Positions 24,470 through 51,416 of a stretch of DNA of 64,000 nucleotides are shown here, piece by piece. The notes under the pieces were generated by a model. The model had not been told where the DNA came from. It did not search any database and saw nothing but the letters and a program-made list of their open reading frames with translations. Positions within the stretch are counted from its first letter, which is position 1, and every line of letters begins with the position of its first letter. Origin of the DNA: Verrucomicrobiia bacterium (GTDB lineage: Bacteria > Verrucomicrobiota > Verrucomicrobiia > Limisphaerales > UBA8199); NCBI GenBank assembly GCA_035946615.1, contig DASYZB010000030.1:1-64000 (forward strand), given 5' to 3'. A program made the translations under genes and the position numbers.

Positions 24470-25447
24470 TTAAAAGAGCTTGCTGAGGGCGGAGCCAAGA
24501 ATGCTTAAAGGTCCTTGGTCTTCGAGACCTTCGGTGGCCTGGTCGAGCTTTTGAAGGGTCAATTTGGCGTTTTTGTAAAGGTCCTGGTCGTTGACGAGTT
24601 TGCCAACAGACCCCTGGCCCTGGTTGATCTTCTGAAGAATCTCCTTGAGGTTGGTCATTGAATCGGTGGTCTCGCGATAGAGAGTGTCATCGTGCAGCAA
24701 CTTCCCCACCGTTCCTTGCCCGGCATTGACCTGGTCCACGACTTTGCGGGCATCGGCGACCGTCAGGTTGATTTGAGTGGCTGTCTCCTGGAGATTTGTC
24801 ACTGCGGTGTAAGCGGAGTTATATAGCGTATCGTCATAGATCAATTTGCCCACGGTGCCTTTACCCTGGGCGATCTGGCTGGAAACGGCTTGGAGATTGG
24901 CAATGGTGGCCGTAAGCGGGACGCGGTTGGCCTTGAGGAAATCCGTAAAGGGACCAAGCAAGTTGTCGATTTTATCTCCGGTGAAGCTCTTGGTCAGGTT
25001 CTCGACACCGGTGGCGACATTATCGATCTTGGCCATGACCGCGCTGAGGTCAGGTTGTTCCTGGGTGGCCAGCATCGTGCCCGGGGTCGCAATAGGGGCA
25101 TTGCGCGTGCCAAAGTCGAGTGAAACGAAGTTCTGCCCCATCAACCCCGTGAATTTCACCGTGGCCACGCTGTCGGTCCTGACCTTGACCCCTTCCCGCA
25201 ATTTCATCACAACCAGCACCTTGTTATTGGTTTCATCGAGGGAGATGCTCGAAACCCTGCCCACCTCGACCCCGGCCATTTTCACACGGTCACTTTCTTT
25301 GAGGTCCTGGACGGTGTTGAACAATGCCTTCAATTCGTAGCCGCGCTCGAACCGCTCGACGCCCCCCACGATTTCGAGGATGAGCACCGCGGCGATAACC
25401 GCCAGCGCGACGAATATGCCCAACCGGGTTTCCAAAGAATTTTTCAT
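24470..25447 (-). CDS. mlaD: MlaD/MCE-domain lipid-transport protein
   Basis: A 325-residue protein with one N-terminal membrane anchor (about residues 8-25), an MCE domain (about 35-120, with 'KMAGVEVGRVSSISLDETNN' and 'GLMGQNFVSLDFG') and a long helical tail. The tail contains three diverged copies of a motif of about 45 residues: 'GTVGKLIYDDTLYNSAYTAV', 'GTVGKLLHDDTLYRETTDSM' and 'GSVGKLVNDQDLYKNAKLTL'. Such helices probably form the barrel or needle that carries lipid across the periplasm. It is the last gene of the module with MlaF and MlaE. Compared with E. coli MlaD (about 180 residues) it is much longer because of the repeats. Confidence 0.9.
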   Translation of the reverse strand: MKNSLETRLGIFVALAVIAAVLILEIVGGVERFERGYELKALFNTVQDLKESDRVKMAGVEVGRVSSISLDETNNKVLVVMKLREGVKVRTDSVATVKFTGLMGQNFVSLDFGTRNAPIATPGTMLATQEQPDLSAVMAKIDNVATGVENLTKSFTGDKIDNLLGPFTDFLKANRVPLTATIANLQAVSSQIAQGKGTVGKLIYDDTLYNSAYTAVTNLQETATQINLTVADARKVVDQVNAGQGTVGKLLHDDTLYRETTDSMTNLKEILQKINQGQGSVGKLVNDQDLYKNAKLTLQKLDQATEGLEDQGPLSILGSALSKLF

Positions 25448-25501
25448 AGTGTGTCTTTTGGTTAATTCAGAATCTGTTTAAAAGCAAATCCAACTGGCCA
25501 T

Positions 25502-26266
25502 CTAAGTTCTAGTAAAATGCGCGTTCAGGAAATGTTGGACCAGCGGCTCCTGGTTGTGGCGCACCTCATTGGGCGTGCCGATGGTCAGTATCCGGCCCTC
25601 GTTAATGACGGCGACGCGGTCGGCTACCCCAAAGGCCAAGTCGCGGTCATGCGATACGACCAGCGAGGTCACATGAGTCCGCTCGTTGAGTTTGACAATC
25701 TCCTCGGCAATGACAACCGAGGAGAGCGGGTCCAATTCACTGGTCGGTTCGTCGTAGAGAATCAACTGGGGCTCGATCACCAGCGCGCGCGCAATAGCCA
25801 CTCGCTTTTTCATCCCCCCCGACAACTCGGTGGGCATGGCGTTTGCGGCATCTTTGAGGCCAACCACTTCGAGTTTCTCAGCCACAATGCGCGCGATCTC
25901 CTCAGGCGGTTTGAGCCGGTGTTCGGCGAGATACAAGCCGACGTTTTCGCCGACCGTCAACGAGTTGAGCAGGGCGCCGGATTGGAAAACCATTGCCAGG
26001 CGATACTGCTCCATGACTCTGGAGGACTGGATGGGCTGGTTCTCAACAAGGATTTCGCCCTCATCCGGTTCTTCGAGCCCGATGATATGCTTGAGCAGGA
26101 CCGATTTGCCGCTGCCGCTAGGGCCCATCAGCACGAAAATCTCTCCTGGTATGACATCAAATTCGACGCCTTTGAGCACCTCATGCCCGTTAAAGCTCTT
26201 GCGCAATCCGCGCACGAGGACACTCACCCCCTGGCCGGAACTGGTATTGGTTGAGTCCGCAGCCAT
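25502..26266 (-). CDS. mlaF: MlaF-type ABC transporter ATP-binding protein
   Basis: A 254-residue ABC ATPase. Walker A is 'LMGPSGSGKSVLLKHI', the Q-loop is in 'AMVFQSGALLNSLTV', the signature is 'ELSGGMKKRVAIARAL', Walker B 'LILYDEPTSELDP', and the H-loop 'VVSHDRDL'. 'GALLNSLTVGENV' and 'SGGMKKR' are hallmarks of the MlaF/Ttg2A branch that energises phospholipid transport between the membranes. The start is supported by AGGGAAC before ATG 26266. It lies 6 bases after the permease and 54 bases before MlaD, in one operon. Confidence 0.95.
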   Translation of the reverse strand: MAADSTNTSSGQGVSVLVRGLRKSFNGHEVLKGVEFDVIPGEIFVLMGPSGSGKSVLLKHIIGLEEPDEGEILVENQPIQSSRVMEQYRLAMVFQSGALLNSLTVGENVGLYLAEHRLKPPEEIARIVAEKLEVVGLKDAANAMPTELSGGMKKRVAIARALVIEPQLILYDEPTSELDPLSSVVIAEEIVKLNERTHVTSLVVSHDRDLAFGVADRVAVINEGRILTIGTPNEVRHNQEPLVQHFLNAHFTRT

Positions 26267-26272
26267 AGTTCC

Positions 26273-27010
26273 CTAGCGCAGCAGGAGCCGGGTCAGGATG
26301 TAATCAAAGATAACGATGAGCACGATGGAGTTGACCACCGCCTTGGTTACCGAGCGGCCAATTCCGCGCGGGCCTCCGATGGTAATCAAACCCTGGTGGC
26401 AGGAAACCACGCCAATAACCCAGGCGAACATGAAACTTTTGAAGACCCCGTTCACCACGTCTTTGAGTTGGACCACATTGCGCAGGGCGGAGAAAAAGCT
26501 GGTAAAGGAAATATCGATGCGATGCACGGCGGTGCTCACGAATGCGCCGCCGAGCCAGCCGACGAGGATGGAGAAGATGACCAGCAGCGGCAGGGCAGCG
26601 GCAATGGCAACCAGCCGGGGCAGCACGAGGTACTGAATCGGATTGATGTTCATGGTGCGCAAGGCATCGATTTCCTGGTACACACGCATCGAACCAATCT
26701 CAGCCGCCATGGCCGAGCCGATGCGGCCAGCAATCAGAATGGACATCATCACCGGCGCCAGCTCTTTGCAAATCGATATGCCCACCACTCCCCCAACCGC
26801 GCTCGCCAGGCCGCTATCAACCAGCACCGGGCCGGTCTGCAACGCAATGACCCCCCCGATGAAAAACGACAGGATACAAACCATCAACAGGCTGGCATTG
26901 CCGATCTCGAAAAACTGCTCAAAGACTTTCTCGCGCTGGCGCCAGGTCTGCGGCAGTGCCAGCAGTGTGCGCCAGAGCAAAATCACCATCTCGCCGATAT
27001 TCTGGAACAT
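26273..27010 (-). CDS. mlaE: MlaE-type ABC transporter permease
   Basis: A 245-residue integral membrane protein of the MlaE/YrbE family. Conserved features are 'IALQTGPVLVDSGLASAVGG', 'LAPVMMSILIAGRIGSAMAAEIGSMRV', 'EIDALRTMNINPIQYLVLPR' (quoted in part) and 'GGPRGIGRSVTKAVVNSI'. About five hydrophobic segments. It works with MlaF and MlaD to move lipids through the inner membrane. The open frame extends another 60 codons, but that part overlaps the upstream gene and is unlike the family. ATG 27010, 12 bases after the upstream stop, gives a normal length. Confidence 0.92.
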   Translation of the reverse strand: MFQNIGEMVILLWRTLLALPQTWRQREKVFEQFFEIGNASLLMVCILSFFIGGVIALQTGPVLVDSGLASAVGGVVGISICKELAPVMMSILIAGRIGSAMAAEIGSMRVYQEIDALRTMNINPIQYLVLPRLVAIAAALPLLVIFSILVGWLGGAFVSTAVHRIDISFTSFFSALRNVVQLKDVVNGVFKSFMFAWVIGVVSCHQGLITIGGPRGIGRSVTKAVVNSIVLIVIFDYILTRLLLR

Positions 27011-27021
27011 CGGTGTGAATT

Positions 27022-28323
27022 CTAGGTTTTGCCTCGAAACTCCTGCATCAAGCGGAGGACCTCCTCGCGTATGGCAAAGAGCTCGCCGCGAATTGATGTC
27101 ACCGTTTGCGCAGGCAGAAGCTTTTTGGGCGCCGCCTGGTCCAAGGCCCCTTGAGCGGCGTGGAGGTGAGACAAGGCCCGTTTGAGACAAGCCACAATGA
27201 ACGGCCCTTCGTTGAGGTCCCGGCCATAAGCCAGGCCATCGAGCGCCCCGGCCAGTTTGGCTCCCAGGGTTTGATACTCAGCGAGCAATCCGCATAGGTC
27301 CTCGTCGGCAGGTTCTTCCAGGCCCAATTCCTTGAGTTTGTCGCAAAGGGCCACCGCTCCATCCATCGCGCGCAAGGCCAGTGGATGACTGATGTAGCCG
27401 TCCTCCTTGCGCACCCAATCCAATCCCTCAGTAGAAGGCTCGGGCTGCAACTCCGGCGGCTCCTCGGCAGATGAAAATGCATCCTCAACCTCATGCTCTG
27501 CCTGGGCCGATTCAGAGACGGCTTCGGAAGCTGCCGGACTGCCCTTATCTTGCCCGGCAGACCCCCGCTCGGTTGTTTCGTTGGTTGTCTCCGGGTCTGA
27601 CCAGCCCATTTCTTTGGCTATCAGTCGGTCGCGGTCGGGGTGGTCCATGTACTTGTCCAACAACTCGGAATATTTATTGGTGCGCGCATCGCACTCGCGC
27701 ATGAACCGTTCGTAATCGAATTCGTCCCATTCCTTATCTTCAGGCGGGTGATGTTGTTGGGCGGCCAAAACTTTGCTGAGCCTTTCCATGAAACTGTTGA
27801 AACCATTGGCGGCATCGATCTGCCTTTGTTTTTCCTCCTCGGAGGTAAGCCGCCAGGCCGGCGCCGAGATGGTCAGCTTGTAGTCCGTGCTCTCGACGAC
27901 GACCCGCCCGTTGGCTTCGCTGAACCATTCCAGGTACAGGCAATTGGCGCGATGCTCGGGGACCGGCAAGCCCTGGTCCAGCCGTCGGTGAACCTCTTCC
28001 AAGGGGATATCGAATACGCGAACCTTGCGCGAGGCAGTCAGATCCCCAATAGCCCCGCGCTGCAGCAGATTCATTTCGGTGTCCAGGGCAATTGCAGGGC
28101 CGGGGTTGTCGAACGTGAGCAAACAGCCGGCGAGATCGGCAGCGGCATTGCCCTGCAAATCCAGAAGCATCGGGGCGGGCTGGCCCTTGAGCCAAATCTT
28201 ACCCCGTACCGCGCCGCGTTGCCGATTATCGATTTCGCCTCGAATAACGTTTTGGTGAATCCGCCAAGCCATAACCGCAGAGTAATCCCTGATTGCCTGA
28301 CGGCCAAGAGGATTTCTTCTCAT
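27022..28323 (-). CDS. Conserved-looking protein of unknown function in the Mla operon
   Basis: A 433-residue soluble, acidic protein without signal peptide or membrane segment. The N-terminal 180 residues look like a compact domain ('IHQNVIRGEIDNRQRGAVRG', 'LYLEWFSEANGRVVVES'), the middle (about 230-310) is disordered and Glu/Ser/Thr-rich, and the C-terminal 120 residues are helical ('AMDGAVALCDKLKELGLEEP'). I do not recognise a family. ATG 28323 overlaps the decarboxylase TGA (ATGA), indicating translational coupling. An ATG at 28272 is an alternative start. Position between the decarboxylase and mlaE suggests expression with both, but no function can be claimed. Confidence 0.72.
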   Translation of the reverse strand: MRRNPLGRQAIRDYSAVMAWRIHQNVIRGEIDNRQRGAVRGKIWLKGQPAPMLLDLQGNAAADLAGCLLTFDNPGPAIALDTEMNLLQRGAIGDLTASRKVRVFDIPLEEVHRRLDQGLPVPEHRANCLYLEWFSEANGRVVVESTDYKLTISAPAWRLTSEEEKQRQIDAANGFNSFMERLSKVLAAQQHHPPEDKEWDEFDYERFMRECDARTNKYSELLDKYMDHPDRDRLIAKEMGWSDPETTNETTERGSAGQDKGSPAASEAVSESAQAEHEVEDAFSSAEEPPELQPEPSTEGLDWVRKEDGYISHPLALRAMDGAVALCDKLKELGLEEPADEDLCGLLAEYQTLGAKLAGALDGLAYGRDLNEGPFIVACLKRALSHLHAAQGALDQAAPKKLLPAQTVTSIRGELFAIREEVLRLMQEFRGKT

Positions 28324-40789: not shown

Positions 40790-41057
40790 GCAGGGGTTCT
40801 AGCAGGTCTGGCGCGACTTGTCAGAGCCAAATTATCCATTATGGCCAAAGTTATTCAGCGTGGAGAGGATGTTTTGCCTTCGTGACTGCCCTTTCTCGAA
40901 TTTGAAGCACGAAGCGATTCAAATGAAACGCCTAGCGTTCCTTGGATTGCATTGATTTTCCGGCTCTTTTCCAATTTGTTGCCAGGTACCGTGGTGAATA
41001 TTGCCGCGAGTTTTGCCAGTTACAGCTCTTGGCCTGCCCTCTGCTTTGGGTGTTGTC

Positions 41058-42167
41058 ATGAGTCGTGCCAGAGTAGAGATACTGAAGAGGAGGGAGCCGT
41101 TGCGGATTGGGTTTCTGCCGGTGAGCGATTGCGCCCCCTTGGTCTATGCCAGCACATCCGGCCTATTCGAGAAATTCGATTTGGAGGTACAGCTCCAGCG
41201 CGAGAGCAGTTGGGCGCAGGTGCGTGACAAAGTGATTTACGGCGAGCTGGATGCCGCCCATGCCCCTGCCACCCTGCCGTTCCTGGCCAACCTCGGCCTG
41301 GATTCCGACCCGTGCGCCTGCGTCAGCGCGCTGGTGCTCAGCCTGCAAGGCAACGGCATCGCCCTGTCTCGATGTCTTTGGGAAGAAGGTGTGCATGACG
41401 CACCCGGTTTGCGCGAACAAATCTATAAACTATGGCGCAAACGCACTTATACCTTCGGCGTGGTGTTCCCGTTTTCTACCCAGGAAATCCTCCTGCGCCA
41501 ATGGTTGCACTCTGCGGGCATTGTCCCGGATGTCGAGGTCCGCGTGGTAGCCATCCCGCCAGCGCAGATGTTTCCGACATTGAAACTGGGATACATCGAC
41601 GGGTTCTGCGCATCGGAACCGTGGCTGTCACTGGCCGCGCAGGCCGGCGCCGGCGTTTGCGTGACCACGAGCGCTCAACTGGCGCCCATGCACCCCGAAA
41701 AAGTCCTGATGCTCCGCCAGAGCTTCGCCGCTGGACGCGCTGAAGAGCATGAACGGTTGCTGGCAGCCCTGCTGGAGGCTTGCGCCTTTTGCGAGTTGCC
41801 ACAGAACCGAGAGTTTCTGGGTGACCTGTTGTCGGACCCGCAATACGTGAATGCCCCCGCAGAATGGGTCCAGAGCGGGTTCGGGAAGGCCTTCGAGGGC
41901 GCTCAGTCCACGAGCGGCTTGAGCATCTTTCATGGCGCCAAAGCCAATGAACCCAGCGATGAGAAGGCCTCGTGGATAATGAACAATCTATACGAATTGC
42001 TTTGTCAACGCGGCTTCATCGCCAGGAGCCTCGGACGGACTCCTGTCCTGAAGAACATTTTCCGCCGTGACATATTCCTGCGCGCCCAGGCCAGCCTGGC
42101 AACCGGCGGGTCGAATGCGCGCGGCGCGCCTCAACCGCTTGAGACGCTGGCCGGGGGCGCTGCTTAA
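41058..42167 (+). CDS. NrtA/CmpA-like ligand-binding protein without signal peptide
   Basis: A 369-residue protein of the nitrate/bicarbonate/sulfonate-binding (NMT1/NrtA) family. Matches include 'LRIGFLPVSDCAPLVYAS', 'GELDAAHAPATLPFLANLG', 'LKLGYIDGFCASEPW' and 'HPEKVLMLRQSFA'. Unlike ABC-transporter binding proteins it starts directly with the ligand domain and has no signal peptide or lipobox, and no permease or ATPase follows. This resembles NasS-type cytoplasmic nitrate sensors, although no nasT is present. ATG 41058 is preferred over the TTG at 41001 that opens the frame. The extra 19 residues are hydrophobic and could be a poor signal, so localisation is not certain. A strong terminator-like hairpin follows. 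Confidence 0.8.
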   Translation: MSRARVEILKRREPLRIGFLPVSDCAPLVYASTSGLFEKFDLEVQLQRESSWAQVRDKVIYGELDAAHAPATLPFLANLGLDSDPCACVSALVLSLQGNGIALSRCLWEEGVHDAPGLREQIYKLWRKRTYTFGVVFPFSTQEILLRQWLHSAGIVPDVEVRVVAIPPAQMFPTLKLGYIDGFCASEPWLSLAAQAGAGVCVTTSAQLAPMHPEKVLMLRQSFAAGRAEEHERLLAALLEACAFCELPQNREFLGDLLSDPQYVNAPAEWVQSGFGKAFEGAQSTSGLSIFHGAKANEPSDEKASWIMNNLYELLCQRGFIARSLGRTPVLKNIFRRDIFLRAQASLATGGSNARGAPQPLETLAGGAA

Positions 42168-42589: not shown

Positions 42590-45496
42590 ATGACGTTCCT
42601 GCCCATTGTGCGGCGCGAATTGCGGGCCACCGCTCGCCGGCGCGCCACTTATTGGATGCGGCTGGCTATCGCGCTATTGGCCACTTGCGTGGGCGCCGGC
42701 ACCTTCATCGTCACGCTCGGGTCGGTCACATTGCAGCAGACCGGGCAATTCATTTTCAGAGGCCTTTCCGGTCTGCTGTTGCTCTATGGGCTGGCGTATG
42801 GGCGGCGGGCGACAGCGGATTGTCTCAGTTCCGAAAAGCGGGAGGGGACACTCGGGTTGTTGTTCCTGACGGACCTGAAGGGACACGACGTGGTGCTGGG
42901 GAAACTGACCGCAACGTCCTTGAATGACTTTTACGGATTGCTGGCCGCGCTGCCGGTGTTGGCGGTGTGCCTGCTGCTAGGGGGCATCACGAGCGGGGAG
43001 TTCTGGCGGATGGTCCTGGTGCTGGTGGATACGTTTCTGCTGTCGCTGTCGATCGGGATGCTGGGTTCGGCCTTGACCCGGCAATTCCGGTGGGCGATGG
43101 CGGCGAATTTCCTGCTGCTGCTGCTCATCACCGGGGCGCTGCCGGCGTGCGCATTGGCCATAGCCTACTCGCTGCCGGCTATAGGGCTGCTGCCGCAACT
43201 GCTCTGGTGCTGCCCGGCCTACGGCTTTTACCTCTCATTCGACGCGCCCTACAAGTTTGATCGGGCAAATTATTGGTGCTCGGTGGCGCTCATCCAAGCT
43301 ATGGCCTGGCTGCTGATAGTGCTGGCCAGCTCGATTGTGCCCCGGTCATGGCAGGATAGGCCCGCGCAGTCCGGCCAGAAACGCTGGCGCGAGTTGTGGC
43401 AGGCCTGGAGTTACGGCAAAGAAGCCCAGCGGCCTCAGTACCGCCGACGATTGCTCGATAGGAATGCGTTTTACTGGCTGGCGGCGCGGGCGCGTCTCAA
43501 GCCGGCACATGTTTGGGTCTTTCTGGCCTGCATGGCCGTGTGGTGGCTGGTGGGCTGGGCCGCTTCGGGTCATTTTTGGTTCGATGAAGCCGAGTACATT
43601 CTTTCTGCAGCACTGCTCAGTTTTGGCCTCAAGGTATGGATAACCACCGAGGCGGGGCAGGAAATCGCCGATGACCAGCGCAGCGGCGCAGTCGAGTTGC
43701 TCTTATCGGTGCCGCTGAGCGTCGAGGACATTCTCCGGGGGCAACTGCTGGCGTTGCGGCGTCAATTTTTAAGCCCGCTGCTGGTGGTCATTGGGGTGGA
43801 ATTGATTTTCATGGCGGCGCTGTATCGGCGGTCGCACGAGGCGCGCATCCTGGCGATGTGGCTGGCAGCCCCGGTGATGCTGGTGATGGATGTGGTCACT
43901 CTGGCTTGGGTAGCAATGGCGCGCGCCCTGACGGCAAAGAATCATAATCACGCAACGATTAGCGCACTGCTGCGGGTGCTGGCCCTGCCCTGGGTGCTGT
44001 TTGGCTTGGTGTTGGGACTCGGCAATGCCTGGTACACCCTCACCCAATATAGGTACTGGGCGCCCGGCTGGAAATTCGACCTGGCCCTTTGGTTCGCCCT
44101 GGGGCTGGGAGCGGATCTCCTGTTCGGCTTAAGGGCTTGGTGGCAGTTGCACCACCATTTCCGTGAGTTGGCGCTACAGCGGTTTAGCCCGGCAGCAGCA
44201 CCGGTTGCGGCGGAAGCGCGGCCAGAAATTGCGCATCCGGTTGCACAGCCCCAGCCGGACGGCCTTCAGCTAGGGCGTCTGGAAGGTTCAGGAACGGCTT
44301 GTGTGCGGCCCGGGAAGCGGTGGGCATGGATGGCGATCTGTTTGGCAACTGGATGCGTTGCGGTGCTGGTGCTTAGCTCGCGCAGCAACGTTCCACGGCC
44401 TTTGAGCGTGACTTTGGGACCGCATAAAGGACCGATGCGGGTCCTGGCAATGACGCAAGGCGTGATGTTCATTCTGCCCGACGGCTCGCTCTGGCGTTGG
44501 GGCATCCCGGGCACAGCTTGGCCCACGCCGGCTCCCTTTCCAGAGCAGGTCGGGACCAATCGCAATTGGATGCAGGTTTCGGCAGCCGGAGGGCGCTACC
44601 TGGGGCTGCAGGATAACGGCACAATTTGGCAGTGGCATTCGAGCGCTTATACATGGGGAGAGGGGCCGGCTCAGGCTGGCTCGGGCAACGACTGGATGAG
44701 TGTTGGAGCGCTACACGATTACACAGTGGCCGTGCGCAGCAATGGGACGTTATGGGCCAGGGGGGGCGCCCCATTCGAGGGAGCCCAACTGACCGGGACA
44801 AACCTGGTGCAGGTGGGAACCAACGACGACTGGAAGGCCATCGGCGCGCATTGGAGCTGCATGTTTGGATTGCGCAAGGACGGCTCGCTATGGGTATGGG
44901 GGCGTCCTTTCTTTTTCGGAACCGGCACGATGGCAGTGAACACCTATGCCAAACCGACCCGCGTATGCCGCGAAATGGATTGGACAGCGTTCAACGGCGG
45001 ATTGCTGCTGCAGGCCTGGACGCGTTCTGGCGAATTATGGGACCTTTCCTACGGGCCACCCGAGCCGGAAGGCCATGCCTCGGCGAGTTGCCGCCTGGTG
45101 CTCACAAACAGCCGCCCCGGCAAAGCCGCGGTAGCCTTTCCGGGCATGCCGAAGCTGTACCACATTCACGCCGATGGCACGCTCTGGGAACGGGATTACT
45201 CGTATGAAACGACAAGCCCGCCCAAGGGCCAGTGGCGTCGAGTGGGGGAGCGGTCGGATTGGACTTCGGTTTGGGGTGGGGGCGGGACGGCCTTGGGGCT
45301 AACAGCGGACGGGACGCTCTGGACCTGGGGTTTTGACGCCTGGCGCCAGGCTGCGCCGGACTTTTGGTCGAAGCTTCGCATCGCTCGGGTGCGCCTCAGC
45401 GGCTGGATAGGCGGCCAGGCTGGAAGGGTGCCGGGCCCCGGGATGCCTGGATTTCAAGACACACCTCGTCCGCTGATGAAGCTGGCGCCGCCGTAG
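42590..45496 (+). CDS. ABC-2-type membrane permease fused to an RCC1-repeat propeller
   Basis: A 968-residue protein. Residues about 1-545 are a polytopic membrane region typical of ABC-2 permeases: 'FLPIVRRELRATARRRATYW' at the start, 'SSEKREGTLGLLFLTDLKGHDVVLGK' (quoted in part; 'REGTLGLL' is the family hallmark) and a second 'GQEIADDQRSGAVELLLSVPLS', suggesting two permease-like halves. A further membrane helix lies at about 578-597. Residues about 616-935 contain at least six RCC1-type repeats ('LPDGSLWRWG', 'QDNGTIWQWH', 'RSNGTLWARG', 'RKDGSLWVWG', 'HADGTLWERD', 'TADGTLWTWG'), predicted outside the membrane. No ATPase gene is adjacent. I know of no described function for this combination. 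The ORF is continuous, with AGAAGAG before the ATG. Confidence 0.85.
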   Translation: MTFLPIVRRELRATARRRATYWMRLAIALLATCVGAGTFIVTLGSVTLQQTGQFIFRGLSGLLLLYGLAYGRRATADCLSSEKREGTLGLLFLTDLKGHDVVLGKLTATSLNDFYGLLAALPVLAVCLLLGGITSGEFWRMVLVLVDTFLLSLSIGMLGSALTRQFRWAMAANFLLLLLITGALPACALAIAYSLPAIGLLPQLLWCCPAYGFYLSFDAPYKFDRANYWCSVALIQAMAWLLIVLASSIVPRSWQDRPAQSGQKRWRELWQAWSYGKEAQRPQYRRRLLDRNAFYWLAARARLKPAHVWVFLACMAVWWLVGWAASGHFWFDEAEYILSAALLSFGLKVWITTEAGQEIADDQRSGAVELLLSVPLSVEDILRGQLLALRRQFLSPLLVVIGVELIFMAALYRRSHEARILAMWLAAPVMLVMDVVTLAWVAMARALTAKNHNHATISALLRVLALPWVLFGLVLGLGNAWYTLTQYRYWAPGWKFDLALWFALGLGADLLFGLRAWWQLHHHFRELALQRFSPAAAPVAAEARPEIAHPVAQPQPDGLQLGRLEGSGTACVRPGKRWAWMAICLATGCVAVLVLSSRSNVPRPLSVTLGPHKGPMRVLAMTQGVMFILPDGSLWRWGIPGTAWPTPAPFPEQVGTNRNWMQVSAAGGRYLGLQDNGTIWQWHSSAYTWGEGPAQAGSGNDWMSVGALHDYTVAVRSNGTLWARGGAPFEGAQLTGTNLVQVGTNDDWKAIGAHWSCMFGLRKDGSLWVWGRPFFFGTGTMAVNTYAKPTRVCREMDWTAFNGGLLLQAWTRSGELWDLSYGPPEPEGHASASCRLVLTNSRPGKAAVAFPGMPKLYHIHADGTLWERDYSYETTSPPKGQWRRVGERSDWTSVWGGGGTALGLTADGTLWTWGFDAWRQAAPDFWSKLRIARVRLSGWIGGQAGRVPGPGMPGFQDTPRPLMKLAPP

Positions 45497-49106: not shown

Positions 49107-51416
49107 ATGAATACAATCCAACGCCTGGCCCAAACGCTTGGGCTCGCCGAGTGCGTGTTTGCGGCCTTGACGACCTGCGAAGCAGGAAGTTCGCCGCAAA
49201 CGGCATCTCTTGAAACACCCTTCGTTCGTTTCACTGTCTCGCATGTCGATGGCACGTGTGAAATTGTCGATAAGAAAGCGCACGTCACCTGGCGCTCGGA
49301 TGCCAAGCACCCCCACTTCGGCTGGGTGCGGCTGAGCTTTCATGAGGAACCCTATCGCGCTCAACTCAAGCGGTGCGACTTGCATTCGCTGGGGACCGAG
49401 CTGATTGCCTCGTTCCAGCCGTTCGATTCCAGGCCATGGTCGAAGTTTAATGTGAGCGTGCGCGCGTTGCCGGACCAGAGAACGCTTGAAATCAGTTACC
49501 AGGAAGACGACGAACTGCAGGTTGAGAGCGTTTCGCTGCTCGACACCGTGTTCAGCGTGGCCAACTCGCAAAACGGTTACGTCGTGGTGCCGGTGCGCGA
49601 AGGGTTGCTGGTCCCCGCCGACAGCGGTGTCAGTTTTACAAACCGGTTCGATACCTACGCTTACGAAGGCTGCCACATGGCCATGCTGGGCGCGGTGCAA
49701 AATGGCGCGGCAACGCTCTTGACGTGGAGTGATCCCTATGTCGCGGCGGAATTGCGCAGCGTGGTTGATAGGAGCAATCCAGACATGCCAGGCCAGCGCC
49801 TTTCACCCGCTCTGGTGCTGACCGGCTCGGCGCGCAGCTTCCGTGTTCAGTTCCTTGGCAAAGGCGATTACGTGACGATTGCCAAGGCCTATCGGCAGGT
49901 CGCGCGAGAGAAGGGCTTGCTGACCACTTGGGAGCAAAAACTCAAGGGTCACCCCGAGCGGGCGAAGCTTTTCGGGGCTGCGAATTTCAAGTTGTGGAGC
50001 GCGCTGGACCGCCGCATGAACGAGCAAAGCACCCAGCAAGAATCTGTTCGCACCAATTGGACTTTTGCCGAAGCGGCGCAAGTGGCCGAGCACCTCAAAA
50101 ACGATCTCAAGCTCGACAAGGTGCTCTTCACGCTGGGCGGGTGGATTCATCGCGGCTACGACAACCAGCACCCGGACATCCTGCCCGCCGCCCCGGAGTG
50201 CGGCGGCGACGCCGCGTTTGCCGACTGCGCCCGGCGCGTCCTGAAGCTTGGCTACCTGTTTTGTCTGCACGATAATTACCAGGACATCTACCGCGACTCA
50301 CCTTCCTGGAATGAAGGGCTTATCATGAAAACCGAGGACCACCAGCTTGCCCACGGCGGCCACTGGGCCGGCGGAATGGCCTATTTAATCTGTTCCAGAA
50401 TGGCCGTTGGCCTTGCGCAACGTCCTCAGAATTTGCCCGGTGTGAAGCAGCTTTCGGATGCCAATTCCTATTTCATCGACACAACCTATGCCGCTGGTCT
50501 GCAGGAATGCTATGACCCGGCCCATGCCCTCACCCGCGGGGATGATATGAAATGGAAACAGGCCCTCTCCGATTATGCGCGGCAGGTTTTTGGGGTTTTT
50601 GGCAGCGAGGATGGGCGCGAGTGGGCCATTCCGCACAGCGACTTTTTCGAGGGGCTGACCGGCGTCAGCGGCCATCCTTACCATGACGCGAATTTGCAGG
50701 CGAAGCTGGGGGCCTCTGTTGTGCCTTTGTTCGATTTGGTTTATCGGGATTGCATCGCGATCTACGGCAAATATGGCTACGACCCGAACCGGGCTGCGGA
50801 ATATGTTCTGCGCCATATCAGCATCGGGCGCCCGCTCAATTATCACTCAGTCCCACCCCATTTATATTGGCTGCGGGGGTCTGGCCGGGAAGCTCCCACC
50901 CCTTCTTCAGGCGCGCCTGACCCGGCGGTGTTCACGCGGGCCGAAAACGGCTGGGCATCCGGACTCCACCCCCTGGACCGCTTCGTTAAAAACACCTGCG
51001 AAATCCTATCTCCTCTCAACGAATTGACCGCCCGGAGCCAAATGTCCCAGCATGAGTTTCTCACACCCGATCGGAAGGTGCAGAGAACCGTGTTTGGGCA
51101 GGGCGCCACTGCGGTCGAGGTAGTGGTCAATATGAGCACTAATGCGTTCGAATATCCCCAGAAGAGCGGCGTCGTGGTCCTCCCGCCATACGGGTTCTTG
51201 GTGCAATCACCAACGTTCGTTGCGTTTCATGCGTTGAGTTGGGGCGGGGTGAGGTACGATGCGCCCGCCATGTTTACGTTGCGAAGCCTCGACAAACACC
51301 CTTTAAATCGCTCGCGCAAAGTGCGCGTCTTTCATGCCTTTGGAAGCGACCAAGTACGGGTCGGCAAACTTACTCATTCGGTGCCGACTGAAATGGTTCT
51401 CGGGTTCGGCAGTTAG
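49107..51416 (+). CDS. DUF5696-like putative glycoside hydrolase
   Basis: A 769-residue protein. The N-terminal 270 residues form a beta-sandwich ('VRFTVSHVDGTCEIVDKKAH', 'GYVVVPVREGLLVPADSG'). The central part looks like a TIM barrel resembling DUF5696 and the GH101/GH129 clan: 'FTLGGWIHRGYDNQHPDILP', 'GYLFCLHDNYQDIYRDSP', 'ANSYFIDTTYAAGLQECYDP' (candidate nucleophile Asp, about 457) and 'VFGSEDGREWAIPHSDFFEG' (candidate acid/base Glu, about 501). A beta-rich C-terminal domain follows. The N-terminus is only weakly signal-like, so secretion is uncertain. Family assignment is from memory of motif patterns. The residues named are guesses by analogy. Confidence 0.7.
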   Translation: MNTIQRLAQTLGLAECVFAALTTCEAGSSPQTASLETPFVRFTVSHVDGTCEIVDKKAHVTWRSDAKHPHFGWVRLSFHEEPYRAQLKRCDLHSLGTELIASFQPFDSRPWSKFNVSVRALPDQRTLEISYQEDDELQVESVSLLDTVFSVANSQNGYVVVPVREGLLVPADSGVSFTNRFDTYAYEGCHMAMLGAVQNGAATLLTWSDPYVAAELRSVVDRSNPDMPGQRLSPALVLTGSARSFRVQFLGKGDYVTIAKAYRQVAREKGLLTTWEQKLKGHPERAKLFGAANFKLWSALDRRMNEQSTQQESVRTNWTFAEAAQVAEHLKNDLKLDKVLFTLGGWIHRGYDNQHPDILPAAPECGGDAAFADCARRVLKLGYLFCLHDNYQDIYRDSPSWNEGLIMKTEDHQLAHGGHWAGGMAYLICSRMAVGLAQRPQNLPGVKQLSDANSYFIDTTYAAGLQECYDPAHALTRGDDMKWKQALSDYARQVFGVFGSEDGREWAIPHSDFFEGLTGVSGHPYHDANLQAKLGASVVPLFDLVYRDCIAIYGKYGYDPNRAAEYVLRHISIGRPLNYHSVPPHLYWLRGSGREAPTPSSGAPDPAVFTRAENGWASGLHPLDRFVKNTCEILSPLNELTARSQMSQHEFLTPDRKVQRTVFGQGATAVEVVVNMSTNAFEYPQKSGVVVLPPYGFLVQSPTFVAFHALSWGGVRYDAPAMFTLRSLDKHPLNRSRKVRVFHAFGSDQVRVGKLTHSVPTEMVLGFGS

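Follow-up and report, generated by a model that had tools for sequence, protein, structure and literature searches.

The fused gene and its product

The window, the 64,000-nucleotide stretch of DNA analyzed here, contains at 42590–45496 a single open frame of 968 amino acids with an ATG start. By frame, Pfam matches and an AlphaFold2 model, it encodes an ABC-2 permease with two sets of six transmembrane (TM) segments, a thirteenth segment (TM13) and an RCC1 propeller; all parts described below lie on the + strand. The first ABC-2 half (residues 1–254; 42590–43351) contains a coupling-helix block, i.e., the presumed ATPase-docking region (residues 74–108; 42809–42913), recognized by its identity to ATPase-linked permeases. 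The second half (residues 284–535; 43439–44194) contains the corresponding block at residues 350–396 (43637–43777), which aligns to that of half 1 (hhalign, E 1.5e-4). A linker with low conservation follows (residues 536–575; 44195–44314), predicted to be cytoplasmic; mean pairwise identity in the alignment of the fused proteins is 0.18 over residues 536–600. TM13 (residues 576–594; 44315–44371) is predicted from the model and the loop charges to run from inside to outside, and it leads to a seven-bladed propeller (residues 605–918; 44402–45343). A conserved C-terminal strand (residues 954–966; 45449–45487) possibly closes the propeller.

An earlier sequence-only reading had proposed one uninterrupted frame joining two ABC-2 halves, an extra membrane helix and at least six RCC1 repeats. 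The joined frame is borne out by the frame itself, Pfam, the model and the fold matches. RCC1 repeats are indeed present, but their number is seven, as marked by W motifs at residues 631, 676, 718, 764, 813, 862 and 907. The Pfam search suggested by the same reading gave a divided answer. ABC2_membrane_2 matches in two stretches with 30.8 bits, above its cut-off of 27.2, which places the protein among these permeases, while ABC2_membrane, WD40_RLD (RCC1-like; E 5.1e-8) and RCC1_2 (17.2 bits) all stay below their curated cut-offs. RCC1_2 exceeds its cut-off in the homologues L116 and L118, and WD40_RLD and ABC2_membrane_2 each hit, at E<=0.01, all 12 fused proteins of alignment A2, of which the window protein is one. 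The family profile also matches the RCC1-like domain (RLD) of HERC2 (E 4.4e-19), so that RCC1/RLD profiles, taken together, recognize the domain. The window protein alone has no match among PDB sequences (phmmer), unlike the family profile and the fold comparison.

The AlphaFold2 model was built from the window protein aligned with its relatives (37 rows; mean pLDDT 83.5, pTM 0.63). It shows two successive sets of six long helices, with one coupling helix per half, then TM13, then propeller strands at residues 605–918 and the further strand at 954–966. Residues 541–578, a disordered linker, and 585–599 have pLDDT below 50; given these stretches and the pTM, the modeled placement of the propeller relative to the permease is uncertain. 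We compared the model with solved structures. Residues 1–254 match NosY of the NosDFY complex (Z 19.4–19.6, the latter with 7qba_E; 3.4 Å over 248 residues), so the first half has the six TM helices and coupling helix of the NosY fold; for the second half, the evidence for an ABC-2 fold is the helix pattern and the coupling-block match. Residues 610–967 match UVR8 (Z 22.4, 4.0 Å over 300 residues), and RCC1 is matched too by about the same part (residues 606–967; UVR8/RCC1 Z 22). The W motifs, the model and these matches agree on a seven-bladed RCC1 propeller, and the outcome that would have spoken against the sequence-only reading, a predicted structure lacking a propeller, did not occur. The propeller model also resembles the PLL/PHL lectins (Z about 16). 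A viral fold library yielded RCC1 proteins of phages and giant viruses, a kinship of fold only.

The propeller had been suggested to lie outside the cytoplasm, and the topology prediction agrees. The loop between the halves (residues 255–303) carries 12 K+R; it and the N-terminus are predicted to be cytoplasmic, with both ends of the 12-TM part inside. In 12 of 12 fused proteins more K+R precede TM13 than follow it, and the propeller should therefore lie outside the membrane, on the predicted periplasmic side.

Conservation of the fusion and its permease relatives

Is the fusion peculiar to one assembly? Among 320 genomes of the same order as the window genome, we found 15 fused loci in 13 genomes, representing 11 genera and 5 families; those with names are Limisphaerales, Pedosphaera or Verrucomicrobia metagenome genomes. 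The frame is unbroken at 12 of the 15 loci (window, L069, L070, L116–L119, L122–L126), L124 meeting a contig end in its last residues. Of the rest, L121 and L128 are cut by contig ends and L071 is broken at an NN pair. The fused relatives are about 46–63% identical to the window protein in the permease, and the blades and coupling helices are conserved. A contig scan with the window protein as sole query found no relative; with the family alignment as query it gave 80 named loci. In a sample of 387 genomes from the phylum, queried with the window protein, permease and RCC1 matches were separate and no fused match appeared outside the window's genome.

With 14 fused loci besides that of the window, 11 of which are unbroken, chance or a frame error is ruled out. 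The sequence-only reading had named homologues encoded as two genes, with a frame error here, as the result that would overturn it; since the fusion is conserved across independent assemblies, that explanation is rejected. The architecture looks like a real transporter design and not a sequencing accident.

In a tree of 68 permease halves, all 14 fused permeases fall into one clade of 16 (SH-aLRT 100), which also holds the unfused orphan permeases L073 and L074. The next clade (26 rows, SH-aLRT 99) adds mainly ATPase-linked permeases with a GldA-like ATPase upstream. The fused permeases are thus akin to ATPase-linked ones. Plain members of the family are about 540–600 amino acids long; in other genomes, one to four of them are lined up immediately downstream of an ABC ATPase of approximately 318 amino acids. 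A linked ATPase accompanies none of the 19 permeases with an extra C-terminal domain versus 29 of the 50 plain ones (Fisher p 4e-6, a descriptive value because relatedness is uncorrected and some rows lie near contig ends). Five members of the family (L078, L079, L080, L081 and L085) end in long domains of other kinds, preceded by an additional hydrophobic segment, and they likewise have no linked ATPase.

No cognate ATPase gene adjoins any fused locus of the window type, linkage being usual but not obligatory in the family. As had been noted from the sequence, none is adjacent to the window gene: the one ABC ATPase that turned up in the window resembles MlaF (25505–26266). Yet identity in the coupling block of half 1 is 0.85 within the fused set, 0.81 within the ATPase-linked set and 0.83 across the two, compared with 0.40 between the sets for the whole permease, 0.29 for TM5–6 and 0.27 for TM9–12. 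The block of half 2 reaches 0.58 between the sets. With the first block at 83% versus 40%, the orphan fused permeases thus retain the surface on which the ATPase of their linked relatives docks.

Of 17 genomes checked, 16 have a single copy of the ATPase that belongs to these relatives, at 75–100% identity; the lone exception is a genome that is 75% complete. The next-best ABC ATPase matches are at most 46% identical. The window genome's orthologue is GldA-like and 86% identical (G000:C74:263-1204; L156). In relatives, one to four permeases directly follow this gene, but none is found in the 8.8 kb read after the copy on contig C74, nor are there permease remnants (best tblastn match a short piece, E 0.013). 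The gene is at the contig start, and its upstream side is cut by the contig end. The same genome has two permeases without an ATPase, the window gene on C30 and another on C46 (L067), as well as an ATPase-linked permease pair of the same family on C12 (L066). The sequence-only reading had left a choice between an unlinked ATPase and a non-transport role. The conserved contact block and the C74 candidate sharpen the former option, and we infer that the C74 ATPase is the best candidate partner of the fused permease. The orphan permease on C46 could equally be its partner, and co-occurrence is weak evidence for the pairing because ATPases of the C74 type are also found in genomes without the fusion.

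The fused loci of the window type that we compared have no conserved gene neighbors, so the surroundings suggest no substrate. In the window, a gene for an NMT1_2-type substrate-binding protein (41001–42167) lies just upstream of the fused gene; it is not a shared neighbor at the other fused loci compared. Elsewhere in the window, 49107–51416 encodes a DUF5696/DUF6259 protein that weakly resembles GH129 and may be a glycoside hydrolase. In one genome, mlaE/mlaF/mlaD-type genes directly follow the fused gene (L071:3915-6511, G012:C459; compare window 24470–27190). Another locus contains five RCC1-type frames side by side (L135:4411-12161, G522:C156).

A second fusion family

The same layout, with about 12 TM segments, a thirteenth and an RCC1 propeller, recurs in another ABC-2 family. 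In 19 of 24 loci examined (L127, L131, L249, L260–L263, L265–L268, L271–L278), all 19 from the same bacterial order as the window's genome, we see a complete row: a GntR regulator, an ABC ATPase and the permease::RCC1 fusion (e.g., L127:2347-6253 and L131:7910-11818). The regulator is short and reaches no NCBIfam cut-off; the ATPases are 60–75% identical to that of L127. Among the remaining loci, L269 and L270 have the ATPase at the contig edge, in L264 regulator and ATPase are both present although the fusion frame is broken, neither gene is seen at L132, and L068 is truncated. One locus has a tandem pair of fusions behind a single ATPase (L268:4408-10012, G636:C74). There are no conserved neighbors around the operon beyond its own three genes; the large clusters obtained are wrong-frame ORFs overlapping it. 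The AlphaFold2 model of this family (pLDDT 79.3, pTM 0.75) and its Pfam matches agree; for the propeller, the fold matches include UVR8 (Z 30.8) and also BLIP-II, CR4 and PLL.

In the 387-genome phylum sample, the second-family permease occurs only in the window's genome, whose copy (L068:9789-11981, G000:C156) is truncated at the contig end. The window's assembly contains no close orthologue of the ATPase expected with it (best match 36%), as would be the case if that gene lay beyond the contig end.

The RCC1 domains of the two fusion types are separate in the tree. The window-type domains cluster with TM-anchored RCC1 proteins that stand alone (SH-aLRT 99), and the group of the second type is weakly supported. 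From these sequence relationships, two independent origins of the fusion are likely. The earlier view that no described system has this architecture holds insofar as a search of open-licence papers found none describing an ABC-2::RCC1 fusion; the window protein is, however, not a one-off, since a second family has reached the same design with the ATPase in its operon. Apparently this is an unreported, recurrent architecture within the known ABC-2 transporters.

Possible function and comparison with known systems

NosD is a beta-rich periplasmic partner carried by an ABC-2 type TM domain, and NosFY acts with it. The window protein shares the six-TM NosY-type fold, but it has two NosY-like halves in one chain, its external domain is a covalently attached RCC1 propeller instead of a separate beta-helical NosD, and no ATPase is linked. 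Because neither a NosF ATPase nor a NosD is found beside the gene, it could at most work like NosDFY and is not a member of that system (this comparison draws on PDB entry titles and general background). The GldA-GldF-GldG system of Bacteroidota is similar in that the candidate ATPase matches GldA best (246.6 bits) and GldF is a weak match of the permease (18–24 bits); the NCBIfam cut-offs are 402.6 and 288.5 bits, respectively, so neither protein qualifies as a Gld component. To our knowledge, the Gld system has no RCC1 domain. The second family, but not the window type, resembles the GntR-controlled ABC-2 operons of the YtrA/YtrB type (compare PMC12772383, PMC8060467): its own operon opens with a short GntR regulator, after which come the ABC ATPase and the ABC-2 permease. 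It differs in the fusion of the permease to a propeller.

The propellers of RCC1, UVR8 and the HERC2 RLD have the same seven-bladed fold. Unlike them, the window propeller is predicted to be periplasmic and is fused to a transporter, with 11–16% identity, and nothing leads us to expect a role in Ran exchange or UV sensing. Fold matches include protein-binding propellers (RCC1, HERC2 and, for the second family, BLIP-II) as well as sugar-binding ones (PLL/PHL). The external sensor or docking platform once suggested from the sequence would be a possible role, and the propeller may serve as a docking or capture module.

It is tempting to picture a putative ATP-driven machine. Two permease halves of the NosY/GldF type would sit in one chain, with TM13 holding the propeller at the periplasmic face. 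A cytoplasmic ATPase whose gene lies elsewhere, the C74 protein being the best candidate, would dock in two copies on the two conserved coupling helices, and ATP hydrolysis would move the TM domains in transport or conformational work. The propeller could then bind an external partner, whether protein, glycan or lipid, and this partner would act as receiver or deliverer in the cycle or be moved by it. On balance we favor this reading, an ABC-2 machine driven by a shared, unlinked ATPase and working in a NosDFY-like manner with its propeller as a periplasmic docking or capture module. A broader proposal seems to us evenly poised between right and wrong: that Limisphaerales possess an undescribed class of ABC-2 machines in which an extracytoplasmic RCC1 propeller is integral, and that this class arose two or more times, in one case as a GntR-controlled operon with its own ATPase and in the other as orphans borrowing one conserved GldA-like ATPase, with the propeller as the external work-piece of the ATP cycle.

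What else could the protein be? The permease might be a membrane anchor or signaling platform of a non-transport receptor or adhesin, whose propeller binds a glycan, as in the seven-bladed Photorhabdus PLL/PHL lectins, or a protein, as in BLIP-II or the CR4 receptor ectodomain. The likeness to PLL/PHL, the BLIP-II, CR4 and PLL matches of the second family, and standalone TM-anchored RCC1 proteins of the same subfamily (L072, L120) are consistent with this, as is the lack of a linked ATPase at every fused locus of the window type. However, an anchor needs no 12 TM segments with coupling helices 58–83% identical to those of ATPase-linked relatives; a single TM segment suffices in the standalone forms, and the second family keeps an ATPase in its operon, so that elsewhere this architecture goes with an ATPase. 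We regard a receptor or adhesin as unlikely. Somewhat less probable again is a fused permease served by another unlinked ATPase, or by several. At E<=1e-30, 12 ABC ATPases are matched in the window genome, one of them beside the plain permeases on C12, but the remaining matches are at most 46% identical, and related permeases elsewhere mostly adjoin the 75–100% orthologue.

Two further explanations would deny the protein a function or an existence of its own. An orphan single gene with unconserved neighbors might be a recently fused, decaying paralogue; this is very improbable, given long frames kept in 13 genomes and 11 genera at the permease identities noted above, with conserved blades and coupling helices. 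That permease and propeller are two genes joined by an annotation or frame artefact has a negligible chance of being correct: both parts do occur separately (permeases L073 and L074, the standalone TM-RCC1 protein L072), but 12 unbroken single frames come from independent assemblies, the break in L071 coincides with undetermined NN bases, and the conserved fusion refutes it. The ATP-driven machine with an unlinked ATPase thus remains the reading that we prefer.

RCC1 propellers are best known from eukaryotic signaling and ubiquitin proteins. Here they are joined to the outside of an ABC-2 transporter, apparently twice independently. This makes the fused protein a natural model, within a single chain, of the way in which the cycle of an ABC-2 transporter reaches a domain outside the cytoplasm. 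With it one can also test whether one ATPase serves permeases whose genes lie at other loci, and it would provide a first functional lead on a common, unnamed protein type of the Limisphaerales.
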